The notes beneath the pieces are model-generated. The model worked only from the letters and a program-made list of their open reading frames with translations, was not told the origin of the DNA and did not search any database. This document shows positions 29,952-38,380 of a stretch of 64,000 nt of DNA, in pieces (the stretch's first letter is position 1; each line of letters starts with the position of its first letter). Source of the DNA: Holophagaceae bacterium (GTDB taxonomy: Bacteria; Acidobacteriota; Holophagae; Holophagales; Holophagaceae); contig JAJTBS010000001.1 in NCBI GenBank assembly GCA_021286765.1, positions 744,001-808,000 on the forward strand, written 5' to 3'. A program made the position numbers and the translations under genes.

Positions 29952-30278
29952 GGAGGCTCCTCTGGGGGCCCAGGGTCCTGGCTGCGGCTTACGCCCGGCA
30001 GGCTCAGCGGCCTTGGGTGTGGTGATGGATTTGGGATGGTGGATCGGGAAACCGAAGGGGGCCCTGCCCTGACTTCGGCCACCCGTAGGAAAAAACAGGA
30101 TGGTCGCGATCCCCGTGCGCGGGCGGTGCCTCGATCAGCACGCAGGATCTCCAAGCATTAAACCCACTTATTTGTTCGAAGGCAAGCTGGTTCGGGAATG
30201 AAGTTACAGGGATGTCACGGGCTGTAACAGGGGGATTCACCCCGGGAACCCAGAATCAAGGCTACTTAGGAGGCATCC
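29952..30278. other. Intergenic region between rne and pstS (327 bp)
   Basis: No gene is recognisable. Short open frames on the minus strand have no ribosome site or family resemblance. The rne-proximal part is GC-rich and probably the rne leader. From about 30155 it becomes more AT-rich and carries the Pho-box-like repeats listed separately. An AGGAGG ribosome site (30269-30274) ends it. Confidence 0.6.
30203..30231 (+). promoter_or_regulatory. Candidate Pho box upstream of pstS
   Basis: Three degenerate tandem units, TTACAGGG (30204-30211), TGTCACGGG (30213-30221) and TGTAACAGGG (30223-30232), place their AC steps 11 and 10 bp apart, about one helical turn, as in PhoB sites. GTTACAG and CTGTAAC also form an inverted repeat across the set. 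Position before the pst operon fits PhoB control, but the sequence is not the E. coli consensus and no well-placed -10 is evident. Confidence 0.45.
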
Positions 30279-31127
30279 ATGAGGATCCGATTCCTGGCCC
30301 AGACCGTTCTGGCCACCCTGCTGTCCGCCCTGGCCGCCCAGGCCCAGACCGTGACCGTCATGGGCTCCACCGCGCTGGGCCCGATCCTGAAGAAGGCGGC
30401 CGAAGAGTACATGAAGGCCAACCCGGGCGTCCAGATCGCCGTCAGCGGCGGCGGCTCCATGACCGGCCTGAATCAGGTGGTCAGCGGGGGGTGCCACATC
30501 GGGATCTCCGATGTCTTCGCCACCCCGGACCAGGAGAAGGCCGGGCTCAAGAACCACAACATCGTCGTCCAGCCCTTCACCCTCATCGCGCACCCCGGCG
30601 CAGGCGTGAAGACCCTCAGCGCCCAGCAGGCCGAGCAGGTCTTCACGGGCAAGATCGGCAACTGGAAGGACGTGGGCGGCCGCGACCAGAAGATCGTCCG
30701 GGTGATTCGTCCAGAATCCTCGGGCACCCGCGCCGTGCAGAAAAAGGAGATCCTCCACGGCCAGGAATTCACCAAGGATGTGCTCATCCAGGACTCCACG
30801 GGAGCGGTGGTCACTGCCGTGGCCACCACGCCCGGGGCGGTGTCCTTCGTGGAGCTGGAACACCTGGAGAAGAACCGGGCCCGCGTCGCGGGCATCGCCT
30901 ACAACGGGGTGGAATGCAGCAATGAGGCCGTGAAGTCCGGCAAGTATCCGGTCTTCTCCTACGGCCATGCCTACACCAACCCGGCCAAGCTGACGGATCC
31001 CAAGGTCAAGCAGGCCGTGGAGGCCTTCCTGGCCTTCGTCCTGAGTCCCGCGTTCCAGCAGACCTCCGTCCTCAAGGCCGGCTACCTGCCCGTGGACTAC
31101 GTCAAGTCGCTGAAGACCCAGCTCTGA
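30279..31127 (+). CDS. pstS: Phosphate ABC transporter, substrate-binding protein
   Basis: A 282-residue periplasmic binding protein for the high-affinity Pst system. Signal peptide about 1-22 (LAQTVLATLLSALAAQAQ). Phosphate-site motifs: VMGSTALGPIL, SGGGSMTGLNQVVSG, IGISDVFA and RPESSGTR. An AGGAGG site lies 6 nt before the ATG. It is first gene of a six-gene phosphate operon and is followed by a strong hairpin before pstC, which would let it be made in excess over the permease. Confidence 0.95.
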   Translation: MRIRFLAQTVLATLLSALAAQAQTVTVMGSTALGPILKKAAEEYMKANPGVQIAVSGGGSMTGLNQVVSGGCHIGISDVFATPDQEKAGLKNHNIVVQPFTLIAHPGAGVKTLSAQQAEQVFTGKIGNWKDVGGRDQKIVRVIRPESSGTRAVQKKEILHGQEFTKDVLIQDSTGAVVTAVATTPGAVSFVELEHLEKNRARVAGIAYNGVECSNEAVKSGKYPVFSYGHAYTNPAKLTDPKVKQAVEAFLAFVLSPAFQQTSVLKAGYLPVDYVKSLKTQL

Positions 31128-31147
31128 TCCACGCATGGAGCCGCATC

Positions 31148-31176
31148 GCCACCCGGTGGCCCACCCACCGGGTGGC
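31148..31176 (+). other. Intercistronic hairpin between pstS and pstC
   Basis: A perfect 12-bp inverted repeat, GCCACCCGGTGG and CCACCGGGTGGC, with a 5-nt loop (CCCAC). No T-run follows, so it is more likely an mRNA-stabilising or attenuating stem than a full terminator. Such stems are known between binding-protein and permease genes, where they raise the binding-protein level. Confidence 0.75.
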
Positions 31177-31194
31177 TTGCAGAAAGCCCGAGCC

Positions 31195-32226
31195 ATGAAC
31201 CAGCCCTCCGACAGCATCCTCGGCGACCCCCTGTCCATCGCGGTCCTGCCTGCCTCGACCCAGGTCAAGCCCGGTCCGTCCGATTTCCGGTTGAGCCGCC
31301 TGCACCGGCTTGCCGACCGCTGGAGCCACCTGCTCTTCCTGGGCTGCAGCCTCCTCGTGGTGGCGCTCATTGCCGGCATCCTCGTCTTCCTGTCATCCAA
31401 GGGGCTTGCGGCCTTCCTCCCGCTTTCCGGCAATACCGGCCGCACCCTGGGCTTCAGTGAGGTTTTCCTGTCCGCTGATTGGGCGCCCTCCAATGACCAC
31501 TACGGCATCCTGCCCTTCATCGGGGGCTCCCTGACCGTAACAGGGCTCGCTCTATTGCTGGCCGCGCCAACGGGCATCCTGACCGGCGTCTTCATCGCGA
31601 AGCTCGCACCCTCTTGGATGCGGACCCTCATGCGGCAGGTCATGGATCTGCTGGTGGGCATTCCTTCGGTGGTCTACGGGATCTTCGGCCTGACCGTGAT
31701 GCTGCCCGTCATCAGCCGGACCTGGCTCAAGGACGCTCCCGCCTCGGGTTTCGCCGTCTCGGCCATGATCCTGGCCGTGATGATCGTGCCGACCATCGTG
31801 AGCCTGTCGACGGATGCCTTCGAATCCCTGCCTCAGAACCTCGATGAGGGGGCCCAGGCCCTGGGGGCCAGCCGCTGGCAGGCGATTGCCAGCGTCCTGA
31901 TCCCGGCGGCCGGCCCACGCCTCATCACGGCTGCGGTGCTGGGCCTCGGGCGGGCCATCGGCGAAGCCATGGCCGTCCAGATGGTCATCGGGAACAATCC
32001 CCAGTGGATCGCCCTTATGCGGGAATCCACCGATCGGGCCCCCTTCCTCCGCGCCCTCTTCACGCCGGCCGCGACCCTGACCACGGAACTGGTCCAGGAA
32101 CTGCCCAACACGCCCGCCGGGTCCACCTGGAACAACGTGCTGTTCGCCATGGGCCTGATGCTCTACCTGCTCACGATGCTCCTGATCCTCGCCACCCGGC
32201 GGCTGGGGCGGGGGGCGGAGGCCTGA
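31195..32226 (+). CDS. pstC: Phosphate ABC transporter permease PstC
   Basis: A 343-residue inner-membrane permease. After ~50 cytoplasmic residues comes the first helix (LLFLGCSLLVVALIAGILVFLSS, split here over quoted range), then a periplasmic loop (GFSEVFLSADWAPSNDHYG) and five more helices with the coupling EAA-like loop LDEGAQALGASRWQAI. The ATG at 31195 is preferred over one at 31135 because the longer frame would run through the intercistronic hairpin and add a non-conserved leader. Its stop overlaps pstA's start by 1 nt (TGATG). Confidence 0.93.
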   Translation: MNQPSDSILGDPLSIAVLPASTQVKPGPSDFRLSRLHRLADRWSHLLFLGCSLLVVALIAGILVFLSSKGLAAFLPLSGNTGRTLGFSEVFLSADWAPSNDHYGILPFIGGSLTVTGLALLLAAPTGILTGVFIAKLAPSWMRTLMRQVMDLLVGIPSVVYGIFGLTVMLPVISRTWLKDAPASGFAVSAMILAVMIVPTIVSLSTDAFESLPQNLDEGAQALGASRWQAIASVLIPAAGPRLITAAVLGLGRAIGEAMAVQMVIGNNPQWIALMRESTDRAPFLRALFTPAATLTTELVQELPNTPAGSTWNNVLFAMGLMLYLLTMLLILATRRLGRGAEA

Positions 32227-33104
32227 TGCAGACCCGTCCCGTTCTCCGCTCCTCCACCACCGCCAAGGTGGTCGATCGCCTCATGCTCGGGCTGCTCTGG
32301 ACCCTCGCCCTAGGATTCATCGCAGTCCTGCTGCTCTTCGTGGGAGCGATCCTGAAGCAGGGCTGGCCCGTCCTGAACCTGGGCTTTCTGACCAGGATGC
32401 CGGAGACCCTTGAAGCGGGCGGCGGGATCAAGCCCCAGCTCTTCAACTCCATCTACCTCGTCGTCCTGTCCCTGGGCCTGTCCCTTCCGGTGGGCCTGGG
32501 GGCGGGCATCTACATGTCCGAATATGCAGGCAGGGGAAGGGCCCTCCGGTTCTTCCGCCTCTGCATCGAAACCCTGGCGGCCACGCCATCCATCGTCCTC
32601 GCCCTGTTCGGCATGATCCTCTTCGTCCAGACCATGGGCTGGAGCTTCTCCATCCGGTCTGGCGCCCTCACCCTGGCCCTCCTCAACATCCCCGTCATCA
32701 CCCGCGTCACGGAACTGAGCCTGCTCGCGGTCCCCCGGGATTTGAAGGAGGCCAGCTACGGCCTGGGCGCCACCAAGCTCCAGACCATCCTCAAAGTGTC
32801 CCTGCCCTACGCTGCGACGGGCATACTCACCGGCCTGGTGCTCACCGCCGGACGCGCCTTCGGAGAGAGCGCCATCCTCGTCTTCACTGCCGGAACCAAC
32901 GTCAGCGCCCAGTTCCCGGATTTCCGGTGGACGGTTCCCGGCGAGACCCTTTCCGTGCATCTCTGGTACGTCACCTCCGACGGTACCCTGCCCGATGCCC
33001 GCGAGATTGCCGCGGGCACCGCGGCCGTGATGATCCTCGCCCTGCTGATCCTGAACCTGCTGGTCCGCTTCCTGGACCGCGCCATCCGACGGCGGACCCG
33101 CTGA
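32226..33104 (+). CDS. pstA: Phosphate ABC transporter permease PstA
   Basis: A 292-residue partner permease: hydrophobic helices from about residue 20 ([20 protein letters not shown]), [36 protein letters not shown], and the coupling loop [15 protein letters not shown]. The helix [10 protein letters not shown]-like segment ([12 protein letters not shown]) is typical of PstA. Start and stop both overlap neighbours by 1 nt (TGATG), so pstC, pstA and pstB are translated as a chain. Confidence 0.94.
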
Positions 33105-33886
33105 TGCTGAACCCAAAAACACCCGAAACCAAGCCCGTCAAGCTGTCCGTGAAAGACATGCACTTCAGCTACGGCGAAAAAAAGGTGCTGGATGGGCTCT
33201 CCCTGGACATCCATGCCGAGCGCGTCACCGCCATCATCGGCCCCAGCGGCTGCGGGAAGAGCACCTTCCTCAAGTGCTTCAACCGCATCCACGAAGTGGC
33301 CAGCGAGGTGAAGGTCGGCGGTGACATGCAGATCGACGGCATCGACATCTACCGCGGGGGCATCGATGTGGTGGACCTGCGCCGGCGCATCGGCATGGTC
33401 TTCCAGAAGCCCAACCCCTTCCCCAAGTCGATCTACGAGAACGTGGCCTACGGACCGAGGTTGTTCGGCGTGAAGGACCGGGCCGCGCTCGACGAACTGG
33501 TGGAAGACGCCCTCAGGAAGGCGGCCCTCTGGGACGAGGTGAAGGACCGCCTCAAGGAGAGCGCCACGGGCATGAGCGGCGGCCAGCAGCAGCGCCTCTG
33601 CATCGCGCGAGCGTTGGCGGTGAGCCCCGAGGTTCTGCTGATGGACGAGCCGTGCTCGGCGCTGGATCCCATCGCCACCGCGAAGATCGAGGAGCTCATC
33701 ATCGAGCTCAAGGAGCACCTCACCATCGTCATCGTCACTCACAACATGCAGCAGGCGGCCCGCGTGAGCGACTACACGGCCCTGTTCTGGCTGGGGCGTC
33801 TGGTCGAGATGGACCTCACCGAGCGCATCTTCACCACGCCGAGGGAACGCATGACAGAAGACTACATCACGGGGAGGTTCGGCTGA
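33104..33886 (+). CDS. pstB: Phosphate ABC transporter ATP-binding protein
   Basis: A 260-residue ATPase energising phosphate import. Walker [11 protein letters not shown]-loop [20 protein letters not shown] (a PstB hallmark), signature [15 protein letters not shown], Walker [14 protein letters not shown] and switch His in IVTHNMQQA. It overlaps pstA and phoU by 1 nt each. In relatives the PstSCAB complex also senses phosphate and, with PhoU, restrains PhoR. Confidence 0.97.
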
Positions 33887-34551
33887 TGCGGCAGTTCGAC
33901 ACGGAACTGAAGGAACTCCGGGAGGGGATCATGACCATGGCGGGCATCGCCGAGGACATGATCGACCTGACCATCCAGGCCCATTCCGAGCGATCCGCCT
34001 CGAAGGCCGAGCAGGTCATGCAGCAGGATCGCCTGCTCGACGAGTGGGAACTCAGGCTGGACCAGGTGTGCATCGACCTCCTGGCCCTCCGGGCCCCGGC
34101 CGCCACGGACCTGCGGCGCATCGCCTCCAGCCTCAAGATCGTCCCGGAACTCGAGCGCATCGGCGACCACTGCTGCAACATCGCCCGCCGGGCAACCTAC
34201 GTGCACCCTCCGATCCTGTCCAGCGGCTCGCTGGAACGGCTCGGTCAAGAGACCCGGGCCATGGTGCGCCAGAGCGTGGACGCCTTCGTGGGCAACGACG
34301 CCGGACTGGCTCGGATGGTCATCCAGGCCGATGATTCGGTGGATGAGCTCTATGGCTCCATCTACCGGGAGCTGCTGCGCCTCATGATGTCCGACCCGCT
34401 CTGCATCGAGCGGGCCAGCCACCTCATCCTGGTCATCAAGAACTGGGAGCGCATCGCCGACCAGGCCACCAACATCGCCGAGGAGGTGCTGTTCATCCTG
34501 GAGGGACGCAGCGCCAAGCACACCTATCTCCAGGGCGATGCGGCAGAATAG
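33886..34551 (+). CDS. phoU: Phosphate signalling protein PhoU
   Basis: A 221-residue helical protein made of two three-helix repeats. The metal-binding PhoU motifs appear once in each half: ERIGDHCCNIA and ERIADQATNIAEEV. It links Pst transport to PhoR, keeping the Pho response off when phosphate is plentiful. It is translationally coupled to pstB (TGATG) and 9 bp upstream of phoB. Confidence 0.95.
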   Translation: MRQFDTELKELREGIMTMAGIAEDMIDLTIQAHSERSASKAEQVMQQDRLLDEWELRLDQVCIDLLALRAPAATDLRRIASSLKIVPELERIGDHCCNIARRATYVHPPILSSGSLERLGQETRAMVRQSVDAFVGNDAGLARMVIQADDSVDELYGSIYRELLRLMMSDPLCIERASHLILVIKNWERIADQATNIAEEVLFILEGRSAKHTYLQGDAAE

Positions 34552-34560
34552 GGACCAAAG

Positions 34561-35271
34561 GTGACCATGCCGCGCATCCTCCTCCTCGAAGACGACATCG
34601 AAATCCGGCTGGGCCTGGAACAGCACCTCCGCCGGGAGGGCTTCAGCCTCATTCCCGTCGGCACGGGCCGCGAGGCCCTACTGGCCCTCAATGCCGGCGG
34701 GCCCAAGCTCGATGCCGCCCTGCTGGACCTCAGTCTGCCCGACATGGACGGCCTGGACGTGCTCCGCGCCATCCGGACCCATGCGACCCTTCGCGGCCTG
34801 CCGGTGCTGCTCGTGACGGCCCGCAGCGAGGAGATCGACCGGGTGCTCGGCCTCGAACTCGGAGCTGACGACTACATCTCCAAGCCTTTTTCCGTGCGGG
34901 AGCTGGCCGCGCGCCTCCGGGCGATCCTGCGCAGATCCACCCCTTTCGAGGGCATGGAGCGGGCACCCCAGCTGTCCTTCGGCCCCATCACCGTGGACCT
35001 GGACATGCACGTCGCCCGGGTGGACGGTCAGCTGGTGGAGCTGACCCGGAGGGAATTCGAGCTGCTGGCGTATTTCCTGGCCAATCCCCGGCGTGTCCTG
35101 ACGCGGGAGAAGATCCTCCAGCAGGTGTGGGGCCTCGAGTACCTGGGCGAGAGCCGCACCATCGATGCCCATGTCCGCCGGGTCCGGGCCAAGATCGGCG
35201 AAGCGGCCGCGGAAGCCATCGAGACCGTGGTGGGCGTCGGCTACCGGCTGGGCGGACCCGCGGGGTCCTGA
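34561..35271 (+). CDS. phoB: Response regulator PhoB-like (OmpR family)
   Basis: A 236-residue regulator. Receiver domain 4-125 with acidic pocket LEDD, phospho-Asp in ALLDLSLPDMDG, Thr/Lys in VTARS and SKPF. Winged-helix domain about 140-232, with ELTRREFELLAYFLANPRRVLTR (first 20 residues quoted only in part), WGLEYLGESRTIDAHVRRVR. It should bind Pho-box repeats. The start is GTG at 34561 (AGGG 7 nt upstream); ATG at 34567 is an equally possible start two codons in. The last 31 bp overlap phoR on the opposite strand. Confidence 0.92.
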   Translation: MTMPRILLLEDDIEIRLGLEQHLRREGFSLIPVGTGREALLALNAGGPKLDAALLDLSLPDMDGLDVLRAIRTHATLRGLPVLLVTARSEEIDRVLGLELGADDYISKPFSVRELAARLRAILRRSTPFEGMERAPQLSFGPITVDLDMHVARVDGQLVELTRREFELLAYFLANPRRVLTREKILQQVWGLEYLGESRTIDAHVRRVRAKIGEAAAEAIETVVGVGYRLGGPAGS

Positions 35272-36614
35272 GGGGTCGCCTCCGGCTGGGGCGGCAGAAT
35301 CACCCGGAAGGTGGCGCCCTCTGACGGGCGGCTCTCCACCGCGACTTCCCCCCCCATCAACCGGCACAGGTGCTTCACGATGGCCAGCCCCAGGCCCGTG
35401 CCCGGCTTGGCCTTCGCGGCCTGGGCCCGGTAGAAGCGCTCGAAGATCCGGCCCTGCTCGGCCTCGGGAATGCCCGGTCCCTGGTCTCGCACCTCCCAGA
35501 CCTGGCCCTGGCTGTTGACTCGCACAGCCAGCTCGACCTGGCCGCCCACGGGGCTGAACTTCAGGGCGTTGGAGAGCAGGTTCTCCAGCACCTGGTGGAG
35601 TCGCAGGGGATCGGCCAGGAGCTTCGTCCCCTCCGGGGCATCCACCTTCAGTGCCAACTCCACCTCACAGGCCGCGGCCCGAGGCTGGAGGTCCCGCATC
35701 AGGCTCTCCAGGAAGCCCGCGAGGTCGAAGCACACCGGAGCCAGATGCAGGGCACCGCTTTCAATGCGGCTCAATTCGGACAGATCGCCCAGCAGCAGGG
35801 TGAGGCGGTCCACGGAACGCATGATGGACTGGGCGCTGGCCTGCGCAGATTCTTCCAGGCGCTCTTCCTGGAGGTTTTCGGCGGCGATCCGGATGGCGGT
35901 CACCGGTGTCTTGAGCTCATGGCTCACGTTGGAGATGAACTTCTGGCGCGTGGTCTCCAGGGCCTCCTGGTTCGTGACGTCATCCAGGGTGAGCAGCACC
36001 CCGCTCACCGATCCCAGGGGGGCGAAGGGGATGGCGCGGACCCGCAGGGTCCGCCCCGCCCGTGCCAGGCGCCATTCGCAGGAGGTCCCCCGGAAGGCCT
36101 GCTGGATCGCGTCCTGGCCGACCTGATCCCGGAACACCTCACCCACGCCCATGCCCTTGGCCAGAGGGGCGCCCAGGCCCAGGTGCCGCTGGGCGGCTGG
36201 ATTGAACTGCTCCAGGTTCCCGGAAGGCCCGAAGAGCAGCACGCCCTCTTCCAGGCGCGCCATGATGCCCGGCAGCAACCGGTCCTCCCGGGCCGCCCGC
36301 TCCTTGAGATCATCGTTCTCGCGCTCCAGCGCCGACCAGGCCCTGGGCAGTTCCTCGATGCTCCGCGGCCGGGTTCCCCCGAGCAGCTGCCCCAGCGGCT
36401 CGGACAGGGGACGCACCTGCCACCGGGCCATGAGGAATACGACCAGGCCGAGGGTGCCGAGAAAGCCCAGGCTCCACAAGATGGAGGTCCCCTTGTGGAC
36501 ACTCATGCCCAGCCCGAAACCCAGGAAGAGCATCGAAACCAGGCAGATCAGGGCGCGCCCCAGAAAGACCGGCATTCCCGACCCATCGCCTCGCTGGGAT
36601 TCATGCTGATTCAT
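35241..36614 (-). CDS. phoR: Phosphate-regulon sensor kinase PhoR-like
   Basis: A 457-residue kinase. Two adjacent N-terminal helices with almost no periplasmic loop (FLGRALICLVSMLFLGFGLG; SILWSLGFLGTLGLVVFLMA), a linker, a PAS domain (about 115-215, RLEEGVLLFGPSGNLEQFNP), HisKA with phospho-His in FISNVSHELKTPVTA, and HATPase (LENLLSNALKFSP, VRDQGPGIPEAE, GTGLGLAIV). The absence of a periplasmic sensor is the PhoR pattern: input comes via PstSCAB-PhoU. It is convergent with phoB, not downstream of it, so it has a separate promoter in the 36615-36727 gap. Confidence 0.9.
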   Translation of the reverse strand: MNQHESQRGDGSGMPVFLGRALICLVSMLFLGFGLGMSVHKGTSILWSLGFLGTLGLVVFLMARWQVRPLSEPLGQLLGGTRPRSIEELPRAWSALERENDDLKERAAREDRLLPGIMARLEEGVLLFGPSGNLEQFNPAAQRHLGLGAPLAKGMGVGEVFRDQVGQDAIQQAFRGTSCEWRLARAGRTLRVRAIPFAPLGSVSGVLLTLDDVTNQEALETTRQKFISNVSHELKTPVTAIRIAAENLQEERLEESAQASAQSIMRSVDRLTLLLGDLSELSRIESGALHLAPVCFDLAGFLESLMRDLQPRAAACEVELALKVDAPEGTKLLADPLRLHQVLENLLSNALKFSPVGGQVELAVRVNSQGQVWEVRDQGPGIPEAEQGRIFERFYRAQAAKAKPGTGLGLAIVKHLCRLMGGEVAVESRPSEGATFRVILPPQPEATPQDPAGPPSR

Positions 36615-36667
36615 GCCCTCAGACCATACACCGCCTGAGGGGCGCCAGGCCGTGATCCCGTGAGAAT

Positions 36668-36702
36668 TTACGCCCCAGTTACGCCCTTGGACCCGGTACA
36701 GT
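36668..36702 (+). promoter_or_regulatory. Candidate Pho box and -10 upstream of the DUF47-pit pair
   Basis: Two exact TTACGCCC copies (36668-36675 and 36679-36686) are spaced 11 bp start to start. Ten bp after the second copy stands TACAGT (36697-36702), a plausible -10. The 11-bp period and the 10-bp gap to the -10 are the geometry of PhoB-activated promoters. The site lies between divergent phoR and DUF47-pit, so it could serve both. Confidence 0.5.
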
Positions 36703-36727: not shown

Positions 36728-37375
36728 ATGTCCTTGAACGCCCTGATGCGCTGGCTCAAACCCCGGGAGATGGTCTTCTTCGACCTCCTGGAATCCGCCG
36801 CCGGCAATGCCTACCAGGCCGCCCAGCTCTTCGACCTGGAGATCCGCACCGGGGATCCCGTCCGCTTCGCCGAGCTCCGGCGCCAGATGAAGGACCTGGA
36901 GCACGCTGGAGACGACTACACCCGCGAGACCATGGACCGCCTGAACCAGACCTTCGTCACACCCATCGAGCGGGAAGACATCATGGCCCTGGCCCACGCC
37001 CTTGATGACGTGGTGGACTCGATCCATGCCGTCTGTGAGCGCCTCATCCTCTACCGGATCGCCCATGTGATGCCCGCAGTCACCGAGATCAGCTCCCTGA
37101 TGGTCGAGGGCGCCGGCGAGATCCTCCACCTCATCCGCTCGCTGCGCAACATGTCCAACCAGAAGGAGATCCGGGACCGGATCCAGCGAGTCCACACCCT
37201 TGAAAACAAGGCCGATTCCATCTACCACACCGCGCTGGCCCAGATCTTCGAGGATCCCAAGGATGCCATCGAGATCATCAAGTGGAAGGAGCTCCTCAAC
37301 CGCATCGAGGACGCCACGGACAAGATCGAGCTCGTGGCGAAGGTGGTGGGCTCCACCGTCATGCGCAACGCCTGA
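36728..37375 (+). CDS. DUF47 (PhoU-like) protein, Pit accessory
   Basis: A 215-residue all-helical protein of the DUF47/TIGR00153 family, related to PhoU. It contains acidic motifs that resemble PhoU metal sites: DLEHAGDDYTRE, ALDDVVDSIHAV, LENKADSIYH and RIEDATDKIELVAK. Members are nearly always encoded next to a Pit phosphate transporter and are thought to modulate it; the same is seen here, 9 bp before pit. Confidence 0.93.
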   Translation: MSLNALMRWLKPREMVFFDLLESAAGNAYQAAQLFDLEIRTGDPVRFAELRRQMKDLEHAGDDYTRETMDRLNQTFVTPIEREDIMALAHALDDVVDSIHAVCERLILYRIAHVMPAVTEISSLMVEGAGEILHLIRSLRNMSNQKEIRDRIQRVHTLENKADSIYHTALAQIFEDPKDAIEIIKWKELLNRIEDATDKIELVAKVVGSTVMRNA

Positions 37376-37384
37376 GGACATTCC

Positions 37385-38380
37385 ATGGTCCTCGCGCTCG
37401 TCCTGATCGTCCTGCTGGCCCTGGCCTTCGACTACATCAACGGCTTCCACGACACCGCCAATGCCATCGCCACGGTGGTATCCACGGGCGTGCTCTCCGC
37501 CCGCAAGGCCATTCTGATGGCGGCTCTCCTGAATTTCGGCGGCGCGCTGCTCGGCACCCAGGTGGCCACCACCATCGCCAAGGGCATCGCAGACAGCCAA
37601 TTCGTGGTTCCCGCCGTCATCGTCGCGGCGCTCCTCGCCGCCATCGCCTGGAACCTCATCACCTGGTGGTTCGGGATCCCCTCCAGTTCCAGCCACGCCC
37701 TGGTGGGCGGCCTGGCCGGCGCGGTGGTGGCCCAGGCAGGCCTGGGCGCCCTCCACACCACCAAGCTGAAGGAGGTGGCCACCTTCCTCGTCGTCTCCCC
37801 GGTGGTGGGCTTCTTCATCGCCATGCTCATCATCATCCTGCTGCTCTGGACCTGCCGGCGCATGGCCGGGCACCGGGTCAACATCGCCTTCCGCAAGCTG
37901 CAGCTCGTCTCCGCCGGTGCCATGGCCTTCACCCACGGCACCAATGATGCGCAGAAGGCCATGGGCATCATCGCCCTTGCGCTCATCACCTACGGCAAGC
38001 TCGAGGCCCACGGGGTGAAGGTGGATGTCCCCATCTGGGTGAAGCTGGCCTGCGCGACGGCCATGGGCCTCGGCACCATGTCCGGCGGCTGGAAGATCAT
38101 CAAGACCATGGGCTCCAGGATCGTGAAACTCAGGCCCATCCACGGCTTCGCTGCCGAGACCTCCGCGGCCATCGTGCTCTTCACCACGGCGCACCTGGGC
38201 ATCCCCGTGAGCACGACCCACGTCATCTCAGGCGCCATCATGGGCGTGGGCGCCAGCATGAATGTCTCCGCCGTCCGATGGGGCGTGGCTGGCAACATCC
38301 TGGTGGCCTGGGTCCTCACGATCCCCATCAGTGCCCTGCTGGCCGCGGCCTTCCTCAAACTGGTCACACCCTACTTCTGA
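37385..38380 (+). CDS. pit: Inorganic phosphate transporter, Pit family
   Basis: A 331-residue membrane protein with about ten helices. The two inverted Pit signature repeats are visible: DYINGFHDTANAIATVV at the N-terminus and FTHGTNDAQKAMGI in the middle; also WFGIPSSSSHALVGGL and GIPVSTTHVISGAIMG. It imports phosphate (probably as metal-phosphate) by proton symport with lower affinity than Pst. Co-directional with the DUF47 gene. It places two independent phosphate uptake systems within one island. Confidence 0.95.
   Translation: MVLALVLIVLLALAFDYINGFHDTANAIATVVSTGVLSARKAILMAALLNFGGALLGTQVATTIAKGIADSQFVVPAVIVAALLAAIAWNLITWWFGIPSSSSHALVGGLAGAVVAQAGLGALHTTKLKEVATFLVVSPVVGFFIAMLIIILLLWTCRRMAGHRVNIAFRKLQLVSAGAMAFTHGTNDAQKAMGIIALALITYGKLEAHGVKVDVPIWVKLACATAMGLGTMSGGWKIIKTMGSRIVKLRPIHGFAAETSAAIVLFTTAHLGIPVSTTHVISGAIMGVGASMNVSAVRWGVAGNILVAWVLTIPISALLAAAFLKLVTPYF

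Follow-up and report, generated by a model that had tools for sequence, protein, structure and literature searches.

The phosphate-control genes phoB and phoR face each other tail to tail throughout Geothrix, a genus of the Holophagaceae (Acidobacteriota), and this convergent layout is a trait of the genus. It is very likely that the two genes form an ordinary PhoR–PhoB system whose layout arose through relocation of phoR, with transcription from own promoters and the overlap of the reading frames as a by-product. The locus was analyzed in a window of 64,000 nucleotides (G000:C4:744001-808000; positions below are those of this whole stretch) from a 3.15 Mb genome that belongs to Geothrix and has Geothrix species as its nearest named relatives.

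Gene order in the window and across Geothrix

The plus strand of the window carries a run of pstS (30279–31127; top NCBIfam match TIGR02136, slightly under the cut-off), pstC (31135–32226 as the listed open reading frame, the real start possibly lying further in; TIGR02138), pstA (32076–33104; TIGR00974), pstB (33107–33886; TIGR00972) and phoU (33877–34551; TIGR02135). The matches of the last four exceed their cut-offs, and the starts of pstA, pstB and phoU are approximate. The run ends with the response regulator gene phoB (34561–35271, plus strand), which probably starts at the ATG at 34567, a codon better kept among relatives than the one at 34561. The histidine kinase gene phoR (35241–36614, 457 aa) faces phoB from the minus strand. 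A sequence-only reading of the window had described phoB as closing the pst operon and phoR as lying on the opposite strand with a 31-bp overlap of the 3′ ends; the coordinates of the open reading frames confirmed both statements, the stretch common to both strands being 35241–35271. Upstream of phoR, the plus strand continues with a DUF47/PhoU_div gene (36728–37375; PF01865) and pit, encoding a low-affinity phosphate transporter (37385–38380; PF01384).

To compare gene order, we examined the loci of 45 Geothrix genomes that gave a strong match to phoR. The two genes were convergent in all 39 fetched loci that held both of them, and the order is thus neither due to chance nor to an assembly slip. 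In two further genomes (G072 and G026), phoB and phoR shared a contig and converged across insertions of 11 and 26 kb, and in G031, G003, G029 and G020 they lay on separate draft contigs. No strong phoR match was found in the fragmented assemblies G030 and G035. The sequence-only reading had set the split pair against the usual operon and had allowed for an isolated rearrangement. Other families indeed keep phoB-phoR co-directional, but convergence turned out to be genus-wide. Among the open-access papers searched, we found no description of a convergent phoB/phoR layout.

The locus also varied in other respects. Relative to its closest relative, G066 (L205), the window showed a swap of the pstSCAB cassette (30320–33392), with 95% identity up to 40 bp inside pstS, none as far as mid-pstB, and 85% thereafter. 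Short and long types of PstC/PstA alternate at the locus across the genus, and pit occurs in two types, about 79–96% or 69–73% identical to the copy in the window, which do not obviously track the Pst type. The phoB/phoR junction itself served as an insertion site, harboring a polysaccharide-deacetylase-like gene in G007 (L046 8507-10394) and TetR-, SDR- and quinone-oxidoreductase-like genes in G028 (L048 8185-11094).

The 31-bp overlap

The spacing between phoB and phoR was –31 in 16 of the 39 Geothrix loci and –4 in two, while 21 loci showed no overlap at all, their gaps ranging from +3 to +193 in 17 cases and from 284 to 2910 in four. Geothrix fermentans DSM 14018 (L025/L112) shares the 31-bp overlap of the window. 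With more than half of the loci lacking it, the overlap was ruled out as a conserved coding device. In the window, the phoR stop codon TAG is the antisense of the phoB codons GGC-TAC, which encode the Gly-Tyr of a GYR motif; this motif sits near the end of OmpR/PhoB proteins. The same held for all 16 loci with a spacing of –31, where the phoR stop was the complement of (C/T)TA within GG(C/T)-TA(C/T), again Gly-Tyr. Where the glycine codon was GGA or GGG (L107, L127), the 31-bp overlap was absent. A phoR frame without a stop of its own thus terminates at the antisense of the Gly-Tyr codons of phoB, suggesting that phoR may have lost an upstream stop and run on to the next one, supplied by the conserved codons on the facing strand. 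The overlap has the look of a by-product, not of a device, and is not needed. Since the –31 spacing was seen both in early-branching lineages (Geothrix rubra, G011) and in the clade of the window, its spread, taken without formal reconstruction, points to an old feature of the genus.

In the stop-codon-mutation model, convergent overlaps form by read-through to the next stop in the facing gene (PMC2174442). The overlap of phoB and phoR would follow the same course, as a case in which the stop comes from a conserved protein motif. A 4-bp overlap of the CTAG type, as described in that work, was present in Geothrix G024 as well.

Predicted promoters and putative PHO boxes

The gap between phoR and the DUF47 gene, 113 bp in the window, was compared across the intergenic regions of 44 Geothrix genomes and contained three conserved islands amid poorly conserved DNA. 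One of them is a predicted –10 element of phoR, TATGGT (36623–36628, minus strand), 8 nt before the ATG. The corresponding footprint GACCATACACC was conserved in 43 of the 44 regions at an almost constant distance from the start codon. It is therefore very probable that phoR is read from its own promoter, as the sequence-only reading had proposed. Leaderless bacterial genes are marked by TANNNT about 12 bp upstream of the start and make up 13% of the genes in three Acidobacteria (PMC3160421). Judging from its –10 element, the phoR mRNA is probably leaderless, too. Because the same –10 element was not seen before the orphan phoR genes of other genera at the starts examined, the promoter may be new in Geothrix.

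On the plus strand, facing DUF47-pit, we found a PHO-box-like direct repeat, TTTACGCCCCAGTTACGC (36667–36684), which forms the conserved island TTTACGCTCC-GTTAC, followed by a predicted –10 element, TACAGT (36697–36702), in conserved columns. The pattern TTAC-N7-TWAC occurred before the DUF47 gene in 35 of the 44 regions, compared with 0.1% of shuffles. A second direct repeat of two 7-mers, GTTACAGGGATGTCACGG (30203–30220, plus strand), lies upstream of pstS; it is kept as GTTACANNGATGTCACA or near it across Geothrix, and most other Holophagaceae examined carry TTAC-N7-T(A/C/T)AC repeats in the same place. Putative PHO boxes with an 11-bp period are thus conserved upstream of both pstS and the DUF47 gene. 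In a genome-wide search, the PHO-box pattern matched only twice, both times in the phoB-phoR locus, while the reversed control gave no match; as the pattern had been fitted to the two window sites that it then found, this demonstrates specificity, not discovery. PHO-box-like repeats also preceded the DUF47 gene in one sister genus (g20; L190, L192, L199), where phoR is absent from this position. From the conserved footprints observed here we infer promoter function.

Transcript ends and possible antisense transcription

A search for known RNA families gave no match. At the phoB/phoR junction, neither an intrinsic nor a bidirectional terminator was found in the window, and relatives had hardly any. 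Antisense read-through between the two genes is thus possible, and with coding regions that share 31 bp the two mRNAs may be partly antisense to each other, as the sequence-only reading had stated. The convergent layout could be read as a regulatory device, with control of the excludon or non-contiguous-operon kind: at low phosphate, read-through from strongly transcribed pst-phoU-phoB would yield antisense RNA over phoR and damp synthesis of the kinase. The scarcity of intrinsic terminators after phoB, the conserved PHO box of the pst promoter and the orientation, from which none of the 41 informative genomes departs, are in line with this reading. However, the genes overlapped in only 18 of 39 loci, their spacing varied between –31 and +393 bp, the junction tolerated insertions of 1.9 to 26 kb, and the orientation may persist merely as inherited synteny. 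An overlap as variable as this speaks against antisense control being required, and we regard a regulatory device as unlikely. Quite unlikely, too, is a negative feedback in which starvation-driven read-through from pst-phoU-phoB represses phoR; if it did operate, the levels of kinase and regulator would shift in opposite directions.

Origin of the phoR position

In the outgroup families of Acidobacteriota, phoR follows phoB on one strand. The other genera of Holophagaceae presented a different picture. Each genome with a match had one clear PhoR (44–55% identity, with one exception of 38%) and, where a strong match was found, one PhoB (mostly 68–77%), and the two genes lay on separate contigs or, in the closed genomes G074, G088, G089 and G093, hundreds of kb apart. 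Most of these loci read pstSCAB-phoU-phoB-DUF47-pit on a single strand. In 13 loci, representing about seven genera, the orphan phoR and mraZ-mraW formed a divergent pair; on the opposite side, phoR was flanked by HIT-spoU or a glycogen-debranching gene. The phoR genes of G087, G089, G090 and G093 were away from both mraZ and phoB, indicating that phoR moved more than once. The idea that Geothrix split a phoBR operon is not supported: its sister genera already have phoR unlinked from phoB, usually beside mraZ.

In Geothrix, phoR sits antisense between phoB and the DUF47 gene, and the mraZ site lacks it. HIT directly adjoins mraZ in G070, an open reading frame for a 413-aa HD-domain-like protein (HDIG motif; L202 6843-8084) lies between HIT and mraZ in the genome of the window, and in G002, G032, G019, G014 and G066 a long distance separates mraZ from phoR. 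In the simplest history, phoR would have left a phoB-phoR operon within the family and then, in Geothrix, re-inserted between phoB and DUF47 in the opposite orientation. The ancestor of the Holophagaceae would thus already have kept phoR off phoB, mostly upstream of mraZ, with phoB-DUF47-pit co-directional behind pstSCAB-phoU; in the ancestor of Geothrix, phoR would have quit the mraZ site and landed in reverse within the old phoB-DUF47-pit operon. This direction of the move is suggested by the outgroups together with the empty mraZ site. An in-place inversion of phoR from phoB-phoR in Geothrix is not the simplest course, given that sister genera have phoR elsewhere and phoB and DUF47 adjacent.

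In a phylogenetic tree of PhoR, the Holophagaceae formed one clade (98/96) apart from the sampled PhoR of other Acidobacteriota, and Geothrix formed one clade (100/99) inside it. The branch parting Geothrix from the other Holophagaceae was weak (68/31), so phoR may have been transferred from another Holophagaceae lineage instead of relocating internally. Geothrix might also have lost its mraZ-linked phoR and gained a different one beside phoB by horizontal transfer. The cross-genus identity of PhoR (46–55%), far below that of phoB (68–77%), would fit such an exchange, but sensors usually diverge quicker than regulators, nearly all genomes have a single phoR copy, and PhoR of Geothrix and of other Holophagaceae share one supported clade. 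We consider this replacement improbable, and it is already disfavored. A separate return of phoR was observed in G077, behind pit and on the same strand. A 142-bp copy of the 3′ end of pit (82%; L170 91-232 and 3381-3522) lies behind this phoR, as if the gene had been inserted through recombination at pit.

Identity of PhoB and PhoR

PhoB possesses a receiver (Response_reg, PF00072) and a winged-helix DNA-binding domain (Trans_reg_C, PF00486). TIGR02154 was its top-ranking NCBIfam family, at 195.4 bits against an equivalog cut-off of 296.2. PhoR contains HisKA and HATPase_c domains with H, N and G boxes. Its top NCBIfam matches, the PnpS and PhoR families, both stayed under their cut-offs (219.4 against 334.2 bits for TIGR02966, 251.6 against 400 for NF046044). 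Because of these scores, the names PhoB and PhoR rest in part on the position beside pstSCAB-phoU. The AlphaFold model of PhoR (mean pLDDT 73.6) predicts a transmembrane hairpin, a PAS-like fold, DHp and CA. Helices 14–40 and 45–77 of the hairpin are joined by a 4-residue turn without a periplasmic sensor domain, and the PAS-like order of strands and helices spans residues 124–212, where Pfam PAS_4 scored under the cut-off. Disorder is predicted for the C-terminal twelve residues, among them those that the overlap encodes.

The next PhoB homologue of the genome (47%) adjoins a different kinase-like gene and was rejected as a second phoB-phoR pair. No other such pair was found, which upholds the pairing assumed by the sequence-only reading. 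That this kinase does not pair with PhoB and stands beside it by accident, as its score under the PhoR cut-off and its distance from phoB in sister genera might imply, is very improbable in view of its top matches to PnpS and PhoR, its PhoR architecture (short transmembrane hairpin, PAS-like fold, DHp and CA), the independent appearance in G077 of a phoR next to the pst locus on the same strand, and the separate kinase-like gene next to the other PhoB homologue.

Proposed expression scheme and comparison with known systems

The locus most likely encodes an ordinary PhoR–PhoB–PhoU–Pst circuit of phosphate control, whose steps of binding, induction and phosphotransfer we infer. The PHO-box pst message would carry phoB, whereas a short promoter of its own would drive phoR, whose mRNA is probably leaderless. 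DUF47-pit, severed from the pst transcript, would be served by its own PHO-box promoter in the divergent gap. Under phosphate limitation, PhoB would be autoinduced with PhoR not on the same message; with separate messages, only PhoB would be autoinduced.

In the E. coli phoBR operon, phoB precedes phoR, transcription is autoregulated by PhoB, and PhoB and PhoR rise together (PMC3812086). Geothrix shares the two-component pair and, as predicted, the PHO-box control of phosphate genes, but its genes are convergent and phoR, with a promoter of its own, would stand outside PhoB autoinduction. The locus is thus not a canonical phoBR operon, that is, a co-directional and co-transcribed one. In Caulobacter, where phoR is drawn with pstCAB-phoUB (PMC11208175), phoB likewise ends the pst-phoU operon and phoR is not behind phoB; unlike in Geothrix, the two genes do not lie tail to tail. 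Five loci of other Acidobacteriota (L053, L056, L060, L066 and L067) have pstSCAB-phoU-phoB as in Geothrix, with phoR then following on the same strand.

A textbook two-component pair thus appears to have been unlinked and then re-linked in reverse; its former position, its present one and the gene order of the outgroup can all still be recognized. A conserved Gly-Tyr motif supplies the stop that fixes the length of a convergent overlap. The Geothrix locus provides a natural setting in which to ask whether a kinase and its regulator require a common message and what uncoupling PhoR from the autoinduction of PhoB does.
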